A stretch of 41,456 bases of DNA from a virus. The notes under the pieces are model-generated. The model was not told the origin of the DNA. It made no database searches and saw nothing but the letters and a program-made list of their open reading frames with translations. Below are positions 2,990-11,907 of this stretch, piece by piece. Numbering within the stretch: position 1 is the stretch's first letter; the number at the start of each line of letters is the position of its first letter. Where the stretch lies: IMG/VR virus record IMGVR_UViG_3300024264_002579, positions 1 to 41,456 of that record; one strand, written 5' to 3'. Position numbers and translations under genes: made by a program.

Positions 2990-3655
2990 ATGTTTAAAGC
3001 TTATGTAATTACTATAATGAATAATGAAAAATCTTTACAGGTCGCTAAAAGATGTACTAAAAGCGCAGCATATTATGGAATTGAAGATGTAGAATTATTT
3101 AAAGCTACTACTCCAAAAGATAAACCAATTAAAATGCTAAAAGATCGAGGCATTGAACCTGCCGGATTTACTGAAGTATATTCAAGACCAGAGAGATGTA
3201 TGAGCGGATTTCTTTCTCATCATAGATTGTGGGAACAATGCGCTGAAGAGAATGATGAACCATATATCATTTTTGAGCATGATGCTATTATGACTGGTCA
3301 GTTAGGAATAATGCCGAGAATGCATTGGGATGCTCCAGTTCTGGTTTCAATTGGTGCTCCATCATATGGTAAATTTCATACTCCATCTAAATTAGGTTTA
3401 AATAAATTAGTATCTAAACAATATCTTCCAGGCGCCCACGCTTACATGATTAATTCATCAGCCGCAAAAGCTCTTATTACTCGTGCTAAGATCGATGCAT
3501 GTCCTACAGATGTATTCATTCATAATAATCGCTTTGATTTTTTACACGAGCTATATCCATATGTTGCAGAAGCAAAAGATAGCTTTACAACTATTCAAAA
3601 AGAACAGGGCTGTCTTGCAAAGCATGGATATGGTGAAGCTTATGAAATTATTTGA
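2990..3655 (+). CDS. Glycosyltransferase family 25-like protein (second copy)
   Basis: 221 aa, starting 1 nt after the oxygenase stop. It shares the layout of the protein at 296-994: an N-terminal FKAYVITIMNN strand, MSGFLSHHRLWEQC (SHxxLW motif) and YIIFEHDAIM, again with E-H-D in place of the usual acidic motif. The two are diverged paralogues. It overlaps the next glycosyltransferase by 14 nt, so the block is translated as an operon. Substrates are unknown. Confidence 0.68.
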   Translation: MFKAYVITIMNNEKSLQVAKRCTKSAAYYGIEDVELFKATTPKDKPIKMLKDRGIEPAGFTEVYSRPERCMSGFLSHHRLWEQCAEENDEPYIIFEHDAIMTGQLGIMPRMHWDAPVLVSIGAPSYGKFHTPSKLGLNKLVSKQYLPGAHAYMINSSAAKALITRAKIDACPTDVFIHNNRFDFLHELYPYVAEAKDSFTTIQKEQGCLAKHGYGEAYEII

Positions 3656-9453: not shown

Positions 9454-9530
9454 GGTCCCTTAGCTCAGCTGGATAGAGCAAGTGCCTTCTAAGCACTAGG
9501 TCAGAGGTTCGAATCCTCTAGGGTCCGCCA
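9454..9530 (+). tRNA. tRNA-Arg (anticodon UCU)
   Basis: 77 nt with encoded CCA. D arm GCTC/GAGC, anticodon stem AGTGC/GCACT with loop CTTCTAA (anticodon TCT), T arm AGAGG-TTCGAAT-CCTCT. The acceptor stem pairs except for a U-U at position 3:70. It reads AGA/AGG, codons frequent in this AT-rich phage. Confidence 0.92.
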
Positions 9531-9700
9531 GACACTAACTATGAACTAAAGGGTGATTAGTTAGTGAAACCCTATAGATTTTGGAGGCCCCAATCTATAG
9601 GTCGGTACAAGCGCTGATACCGCGAAACTCAGCCGGTTGCTGCATACGTAAAATGCAGATAGAAGGGGAGGCACTGCAGAAGGTCTCCCCTTTGATTTAC
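9531..9700 (+). ncRNA. Putative structured non-coding RNA downstream of tRNA-Arg
   Basis: No ORF fits this stretch, but it has at least six perfect stems: 9533-9540/9559-9566 (8 bp), 9571-9580/9592-9601 (10 bp), 9603-9607/9618-9622 (5 bp), 9640-9645/9653-9658 (6 bp), 9663-9670/9685-9692 (8 bp), plus GCTGA 9613-9617 with TCAGC 9629-9633, which would make an H-type pseudoknot. A further loop pairing, AGGGT 9550-9554 with ACCCT 9569-9573, competes with the second stem. The last stem is followed by TTTGATTT and may terminate the transcript. It is much less AT-rich than its surroundings. I do not recognise the family. It is probably transcribed with the tRNA. Confidence 0.6.
9663..9692 (+). terminator. 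Terminal hairpin of the structured RNA
   Basis: AAGGGGAG pairs with CTCCCCTT over a 14-nt loop, followed by TGATTT. It could be a weak intrinsic terminator or the 3' domain of the RNA. Confidence 0.4.
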
Positions 9701-10765: not shown

Positions 10766-10967
10766 AAGAATAAAATTATTTATTGCTTGGTATAAACAAT
10801 TAAGGGAAAGGAGACACGAATTTCCTTTCCCTTGGTACTATCACACTTCATATAATATTTGGAATTGTTTTCGTTGGGCTGTATATAATTCAGCTAATAA
10901 TGATATTAATGGAAATTATTTGTATAAATATTCCCAATGTGGCAAATATAAGAAAAGGATAAGATAG
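10758..10967 (+). CDS. Possible aromatic-rich small protein (69 aa)
   Basis: The only start is a TTG overlapping the previous gene, with a poor Shine-Dalgarno, so this call is uncertain. The product is basic and very rich in Trp, Tyr and Phe (WYKQLRERRHEFPFPWYYH). The DNA carries an 11-bp perfect hairpin (10802-10833) and a late-promoter element (10923-10930). The frame ends exactly at the GTG start of the synthetase-like gene. It could be a real small protein or leader DNA of the downstream unit. Confidence 0.38.
   Translation: MNRRIKLFIAWYKQLRERRHEFPFPWYYHTSYNIWNCFRWAVYNSANNDINGNYLYKYSQCGKYKKRIR
10923..10930 (+). promoter_or_regulatory. T4-type late promoter candidate
   Basis: Exact TATAAATA, 37 nt before the GTG at 10967. 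It would express the synthetase-like gene and the tRNA downstream late in infection. Confidence 0.5.
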
Positions 10968-11791
10968 TGACACAATTGATTGAACCAAAAAAATTTACAA
11001 AAGCAGTTGACCTTTTAAGGTCATTTTTTTTGAATAGAGGCTTTGAAGAAGTACATACACAAAACCGATTAAGCATTTTAGCTGCATGTGAAGATCCAGA
11101 AAATGTAGCAACATATAATTATGAAGGGCAAATATGGCCTCTTCCTCAAACTGGCCAGATGTGGTTGGAATATGAATTATTAACTCGCCCCTCTTCGAAG
11201 GGGTTTTTTTGTGTCTCGACTTCGTATAGACAAGAACCAAATGCAATTCCTGGAAGACATGATACGATTTTTCCGATGTTTGAATTTGAAATGCCAGGAG
11301 ACATCGATGATCTTAAGACTATGGAATATCAATTATGTAATCATTTAGGATTTGATATTCCAACAGAAAAAACATATCGTGAATGGCAACAACATTACGG
11401 TCTAAGTTCTACTACAGAATTAGATGCTCAGCACGAGTTAGCAATGGAAGCTAGTTTTGGTAGTTCTATGATTACAGAATTTCCTGAATTTACAAGTCCA
11501 TTTTGGAATATGTCAAGAAATGAAGATGGTACAAGTAAGAAGATTGATGTTATCCTTGGTGGTATGGAAACAATTGGTAGTGCAGAACGCAGTACTGATA
11601 AAGACCAAATGCGAGATACATTTCATACTATTTCAAATGGCGAATATGCTGGTCTTATTAACCAATTATTTGGTAAAGATCGCGTTGAAGCAGAACTTGA
11701 AAAGTTTCTTGAATTTGATTTCTTTCCAAGAGTTGGGGGTGGAATAGGTATGACACGCATGATCAGTGCGCTCGATACTCTTAAAAAGTAA
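10967..11791 (+). CDS. Stand-alone class II aminoacyl-tRNA synthetase catalytic core (Asn/Asp/Lys subclass)
   Basis: 274 aa, GTG start after AAAGGATAAG. Class IIb features: motif 2 as TSYRQEPN...GRHDTIFPMFEFEM (R88, E90, R97, H98, E106; ATP and amino-acid contacts), a GGMETIGSAERS strand, and motif 3 as RVGGGIGMTRM with R264. The N-terminal OB-fold anticodon-binding domain of normal AsnRS, AspRS and LysRS is absent: the catalytic domain starts about residue 10. Such cores are known as asparagine synthetases (AsnA, archaeal AS-AR) or amino-acid ligases. The active site looks intact. An Asn-anticodon tRNA starts 6 nt after the stop, which favours an Asn/Asp substrate. A terminator-like hairpin lies inside the gene at 11188-11210. 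Confidence 0.75.
   Translation: MTQLIEPKKFTKAVDLLRSFFLNRGFEEVHTQNRLSILAACEDPENVATYNYEGQIWPLPQTGQMWLEYELLTRPSSKGFFCVSTSYRQEPNAIPGRHDTIFPMFEFEMPGDIDDLKTMEYQLCNHLGFDIPTEKTYREWQQHYGLSSTTELDAQHELAMEASFGSSMITEFPEFTSPFWNMSRNEDGTSKKIDVILGGMETIGSAERSTDKDQMRDTFHTISNGEYAGLINQLFGKDRVEAELEKFLEFDFFPRVGGGIGMTRMISALDTLKK
11188..11210 (+). terminator. Terminator-like hairpin inside the synthetase-core gene
   Basis: CCCCT and AGGGG flank CTTCGA, followed at once by seven T. It encodes residues RPSSKGFF just before motif 2. Possible attenuator controlling the gene and its tRNA. Confidence 0.45.
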
Positions 11792-11797
11792 GAATAA

Positions 11798-11907
11798 TCC
11801 AAGGTGGTGGAATAGGTAGACACGCAGCACTGTTTATGCTGTGAATATGTAGTCTTAGCAAAAGAATATTTATATTCGTGCAGGTTCGAATCCTGCCCTT
11901 GGAGCCA
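11798..11907 (+). tRNA. Aberrant tRNA-Asn-like RNA (anticodon GUU) with long variable arm
   Basis: 110 nt with encoded CCA. Acceptor TCCAAGG/CCTTGGA (7 bp, U1-A72) and discriminator G73. D arm GTG/CAC with an 11-nt loop, as in tRNA-Leu/Ser. Anticodon stem CAGCA/TGCTG, loop CTGTTTA, anticodon GTT. Variable region of 38 nt (11842-11879) with a GAATAT/ATATTC stem. T arm GCAGG-TTCGAAT-CCTGC. Acceptor and anticodon carry the Asn identity set (G34, U35, U36, G73), but the body is class II and position 37 is U instead of a purine. It may be a specialised RNA rather than an ordinary decoder. Confidence 0.8.

Follow-up and report, generated by a model that had tools for sequence, protein, structure and literature searches.

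The window, by which we mean the whole stretch of DNA analyzed, is a 41,456-base IMG/VR viral record with T4-type baseplate genes. A gene for tRNA-Arg (anticodon UCU) occupies positions 9454 to 9530 of its plus strand, and the encoded CCA abuts a noncoding RNA element on the same strand, at 9531 to 9697, whose first base is the next base after the CCA and whose extent was delimited with a covariance model, R2, at a score of 139.7 bits. A previous inspection of the letters alone (the sequence-only reading) had singled out here an ORF-free stretch of 170 nt, richer in G+C than its surroundings, and had proposed a multi-stem RNA of no assigned class that includes an H-type pseudoknot. No ORF of 50 amino acids or more overlaps the element, and its G+C content is 46.7%, compared with 34.2% for the window, a level found in <1% of 167-nt windows. 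The minimum free energy of the 167-nt element, −60.4 kcal/mol, lies at z = −4.9 relative to shuffles, and the best of 248 other tiles gave −50.1 kcal/mol. The whole window matched only tRNAs when compared with Rfam 15 at the gathering threshold, and even at E = 10 nothing credible besides tRNA, and no ribozyme, was detected; no Rfam match was found among the relatives of the element, and blastn of members of subgroups A, C, and E against named phages gave no credible match. A reading as tmRNA was rejected because the combination of a tRNA-like domain and a tag ORF is absent, and a short ORF considered in the P1 loop (ATGAA...) was discarded, since some relatives lack it or have it interrupted.

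Every stem proposed in the sequence-only reading could be located at its position. The RNA as a whole is about 165 nt long, of which about 130 nt form a conserved core. In the window, the core begins with the P2 arm at 9571 to 9601 (9571–9580 paired with 9592–9601), which carries the palindrome GGCC in its apical loop at 9586 to 9589. The H-type pseudoknot follows, composed of stem S1 at 9603 to 9622 (9603–9607/9618–9622) and stem S2 at 9613 to 9633 (9613–9617/9629–9633), with the A-rich crossing strand CGAAAC at 9623 to 9628. The P3 hairpin at 9640 to 9658 (9640–9645/9653–9658) has the conserved loop ACGURAAA, and the P4 hairpin at 9663 to 9692 (9663–9672/9683–9692), with the palindrome CUGCAG in its apical loop at 9674 to 9679, is directly followed by the conserved motif YGAWW. 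The domain 5' to this core is modular and interchangeable between subgroups: it is a simple P1 hairpin in subgroup A, including the window (9533 to 9566; 9533–9540/9559–9566), and in some members of subgroup B, a branched P1 in other members of B, and a second pseudoknot, read by eye, in subgroup C, while it is missing altogether in members that start at a stop codon (L229, L232). The second pseudoknot of subgroup C consists of an outer stem, AGGC/GCCT, GGGC/GCCC, or GAGC/GCTC, a crossing stem, GGG/CCC or GAG/CTC, and an inner hairpin, GAC/GTC, GGC/GCC, or AGC/GCT. In L222, L189, L225, L212, and others of this subgroup, the conserved 5' pseudoknot is accompanied by a loop-E-like GAA/GUA internal loop, a structure absent from the member in the window.

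Two parts of the sequence-only reading did not survive comparison with relatives. It had suggested that a pairing of 9550–9554 with 9569–9573 competes with a neighboring stem and might form a switch, but this pairing is absent in L006 and in subgroup B, belongs to the variable domain, and would break the conserved P2. It had also taken the 3' hairpin for a terminator, whereas this hairpin is P4, a conserved arm; no intrinsic terminator was found here, and the T-run that would have to follow a G+C hairpin in such a terminator is missing in many relatives. The two competing pairings and the terminal hairpin of the window are what would favor a metabolite riboswitch or an attenuator of the downstream gene; given that the alternative pairing is not conserved, that the downstream genes differ and are often convergent, and that there is no terminator, such a function seems scarcely credible.

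Judged from sequence comparison, the element belongs to a previously unlisted RNA family, which was recovered from about 90 marine viral contigs as 68 distinct sequences. Loci around a neighboring gene contain the same RNA behind tRNA-Arg, in the form of subgroups A (the window type) and B. Thirteen sequences were registered by hand in an alignment, A3, from which the hypervariable P1 loop was cut out with N pads; because A3 is hand-made, covariance models were then used. The DNA patterns employed for locus scans fix only the pseudoknot (two patterns) or only P3. Members were identified by the model R1 in all 58 new loci obtained with the P3 pattern and in 13 of the 26 obtained with the first pseudoknot pattern, and R2, which was built from 64 aligned members, recovered six of six loci newly obtained with the second pseudoknot pattern. 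Because the collection scans need exact pattern matches, this sample certainly falls short of the whole family. A single match, L266 in a marine metagenome-assembled bin, came from the genome collection. R2 found nothing better than E 0.05 in the whole records of T4, P-SSM2, P-SSM7, and P-SSM4 or in those of HTVC008M, Melnitz, C48C1, AG-345-O18, and Sf-FS3, and among the small number of cultured phages tested none carries the RNA.

The proposed structure is borne out by strong covariation. In A3, 98.6% of the cells pair, and double changes occur in 20 of the 39 base pairs, while sliding the partners by 1 to 3 columns lowers pairing to 32 to 44%. In the 64-sequence alignment, pairing extends to 95.8% of the cells and double changes to 26 of the 34 pairs, with 340 double-change cells observed versus 82 in shuffles; this alignment was fitted to the model and so favors the structure, a bias addressed by the slid registers, in which only 38 to 48% of the cells are paired, and by the hand count. 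The compensatory pairs of S2 are especially clear, GCUGA/UCAGC in subgroup A being replaced by CUCUG/CAGAG in subgroup B, so that all five pairs are swapped on both sides; across the distinct cores S2 always pairs, in twelve sequence types and nowhere with more than one mismatch. G-U pairs are present on the given strand in both the 13- and the 64-sequence sets, which we take as evidence for the strand. The pseudoknot and the G-U pairs, as read from these alignments, show selection at the RNA level. The H-type pseudoknot and the unassigned status of the RNA, both part of the sequence-only reading, thus hold.

The genomic context of the family is diverse. Of 21 viral records scanned over their full length, the largest 221 kb, 20 contain one full copy each, and the upstream neighbor may be gp32 (identified by Pfam gp32 at 143.7 bits), one of several small proteins, or a tRNA for Arg, Met, Pro, or Leu. 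Because the neighbors differ, the common feature is the position 3' of a same-strand gene. Many members start 0 to 50 nt past a stop codon or the CCA of a tRNA, and where gp32 precedes the RNA, the following gene is mostly convergent and begins within about 20 nt of the 3' end of the RNA. These arrangements would suit a cis-acting 3'-end module of strongly expressed transcripts, such as gp32 mRNA and tRNA precursors, that blocks exonucleases or marks a processing site, with oligomerization secondary or absent. We consider such a role rather unlikely because a general stabilizer would be repeated, whereas the RNA occurs once per genome behind different genes, because a same-strand gene follows it in many members, and because a module of this kind has no need for the palindromic loops described below. 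The single copy and the changing neighbors point instead to a product acting in trans. As a separate observation, the 208-nt gap behind gp32 in Melnitz (L278) is occupied, at 3418 to 3540, by another stretch, of structured appearance and with a genuine T-run terminator, to which R2 gives no match.

The tRNA link, from which processing out of a shared transcript had been proposed, is only one genomic context among many, although release of the RNA from the tRNA transcript is plausible because the RNA starts right at the CCA. That it begins there with a G, in the place held in gut phages by theta ribozymes, which are small, pseudoknotted, HDV-like, self-cleaving RNAs at the 3' end of phage tRNAs (PMC10879173), might suggest a ribozyme that trims the tRNA 3' end. 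Nothing, however, points to any self-cleavage: no Rfam ribozyme matches even at a permissive threshold, the stems make up an H-type pseudoknot and hairpins and not the nested double pseudoknot of HDV-like ribozymes, and most relatives lie elsewhere than at the end of a tRNA. A ribozyme is, consequently, very improbable.

The most informative feature of the family, which the sequence-only reading did not contain, is that two apical loops are palindromic. All 68 distinct members tallied carry CTGCAG, CCTAGG, CTCGAG, or UGUGCAUA in the P4 loop, the last being the version of subgroup B and self-complementary with G-U pairs, that is, a wobble palindrome. At the center of the P2 apical loop stands one of several palindromic tetramers, GGCC, TGCA, GTAC, GCGC, TCGA, ACGT, or TTAA; automatic folding showed a palindromic P2 loop in 66 of the 68, and the remaining two (L216, L257) hold CCTGTACAGG, which the automatic fold missed. 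Among loci selected solely by their pseudoknot, palindromes occur in 12 of 14 distinct P2 loops versus 5.8 expected with loops shuffled, and in 6 of 8 distinct P4 loops versus 0.5. The P3 loop, taken as a control, contains no six-base palindrome; what weighs on the other side is that ACGT is frequent in it as well, although subgroups B and D have a nonpalindromic P3 loop. In a tree built from the between-arm segment (about 60 nt), the palindrome changed at least 24 times in P2 and at least 13 times in P4, every time to another palindrome. Both figures are minima under parsimony, and recombination of whole arms may contribute to them; the independent events might be fewer because the fast-evolving P2 and P4 loops could be exchanged as cassettes, but an arm that takes the place of another is always palindromic, even if swapped whole. 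Different palindromes are found on an identical PK-P3 segment in L002 (CTGCAG) and L266 (CCTAGG), and also in L212 (CGCTCGAGCG) and L255 (CGCGCGCGCG), where a double change preserves self-complementarity. The latter change cannot reflect intramolecular pairing because two bases would close a two-base loop. Pairing of P2 with P4 within one molecule was considered and rejected because the two palindromes usually differ in one molecule and so do not pair together. Self-complementary apical loops that covary as palindromes are a sign of a homo-oligomeric RNA class, and that is the pattern observed here.

The RNAs of the window and of L004 are 97% identical across the first 135 nt and then have different P4 arms. 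More generally, the P4 arm (9663 to 9692 in the window) is swapped wholesale in comparison with L004, L006, and L098, while the remaining RNA is 88 to 97% identical, a pattern suggestive of recombination or of strong selection acting on the loop. That P4 is an inverted repeat exchanged between near-identical members would also agree with a monomeric noncoding RNA whose palindromes bind a symmetric (dimeric) protein or serve DNA recombination or a nuclease, rather than loop kissing. This seems improbable, since recognition by a protein or nuclease would hold the site to one sequence, whereas only self-complementarity persists here, and since the pseudoknot and the G-U pairs indicate selection on RNA rather than DNA.

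We therefore return to pairing between RNA copies. It is likely, as far as sequence comparison can tell, that these elements constitute an undescribed family of phage noncoding RNAs that act in trans and whose copies bind each other via two self-complementary apical loops. The RNA would be cotranscribed with whichever gene or tRNA precedes it, released through processing at the tRNA 3' end or out of the 3' region of the mRNA, and would fold autonomously. Copies would then bind, P2 loop to P2 loop and P4 loop to P4 loop (in the window, the proposed self-kissing loops 1 and 2, respectively), and pairing of the RNA with itself through two such symmetric contacts is the most likely meaning of the palindromes. 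It probably assembles into dimers or larger particles: because two different twofold contacts are present on one molecule, a closed dimer, an even-membered ring, or a filament would be expected. A palindromic tetramer alone is a weak contact, which counts against loop–loop pairing; if gp32 and the tRNAs are strongly transcribed, as we assume, a position behind them would bring the RNA to the high concentration required. The resulting RNA-only assembly would act in trans, perhaps, during infection, as a scaffold or sponge for some factor of the host or the phage, and a host RNA-binding or translation factor is our leading guess, held with low confidence. Another possibility, though a doubtful one, is that the monomers of about 165 nt form protein-free rings, shells, or filaments and that selection diversifies the loops so that the RNA of each phage assembles only with its own kind.

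Self-complementary loops of this type have precedents. The retroviral DIS is a six-base, purine-flanked palindrome in a hairpin loop, whose sequence varies but is always palindromic; it is a cis dimer signal of genomic RNA, while the RNA here is a stand-alone phage RNA. In the OLE RNA, the L9.3 loop resembles P2 in that its palindromic tetramer GGCC, a dimer contact, switches to other palindromes, but OLE is a bacterial RNA with one such loop, in contrast to the two loops of the phage RNA. In the study of OLE, ROOL, and GOLLD, the change of GGCC to GAUC or AGCU was taken as a sign that symmetric kissing loops are of importance in nature, and palindrome switching in a loop too tight for self-pairing supported the homo-oligomer bridges seen by cryo-EM in OLE and GOLLD (PMC12286853). 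GOLLD and ROOL are, like the present family, pseudoknotted phage RNAs often located beside tRNA genes, GOLLD env-38 being behind a marine tRNA-Met (PMC12286853). Their homo-oligomers, held by symmetric kissing loops, were seen by cryo-EM, while oligomers are only inferred from sequence here; they form cages from RNAs of about 660 to more than 800 nt, whereas about 165 nt is far below the >600 nt of that class, and their Rfam covariance models match neither the window nor the relatives. The T4 species 1 and 2 RNAs (rnaC, rnaD; 119 to 139 nt) lie directly behind a phage tRNA-Arg. They are stable RNAs of unknown function (PMC3014915) that are expressed late, as confirmed by Northern blot (PMC9697503). 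Their location directly 3' of tRNA-Arg is shared by subgroups A and B only, and they match neither R1 nor R2 and have predicted folds that differ from the RNA here. Very few families of natural RNA-only assemblies are known, and the phage ones, GOLLD and ROOL, are large and of unknown function. A family widespread in marine phages and, at 165 nt, small enough for chemical probing, mutation, and structural work would make the question of why phages produce self-assembling RNAs beside tRNAs directly testable and may throw light on the roles of the T4 species 1 and 2 RNAs.

Some neighboring genes deserve mention. The gene at 10967 to 11791 of the window is 66 to 71% identical to a gene of P-SSM2 and P-SSM7 annotated as "tRNA ligase," and it matches Pfam tRNA-synt_2 (class II D/K/N synthetase) with 52.7 bits; its product has no sequence match in the PDB. 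Directly behind it, at 11798 to 11904, lies a tRNA with the anticodon GTT (Asn), a Leu-like body, and a very long variable arm, and the pair recurs in relatives. As far as the sequences suggest, the phage may possess a dedicated synthetase–tRNA pair, which might read AAC differently. Permuted (two-piece) tmRNA genes occur near the synthetase-like gene in L117, L135, L137, L177, and L178, in antisense orientation in L168, L170, and L172, and, in L198, roughly 2 kb ahead of the member of the RNA family.
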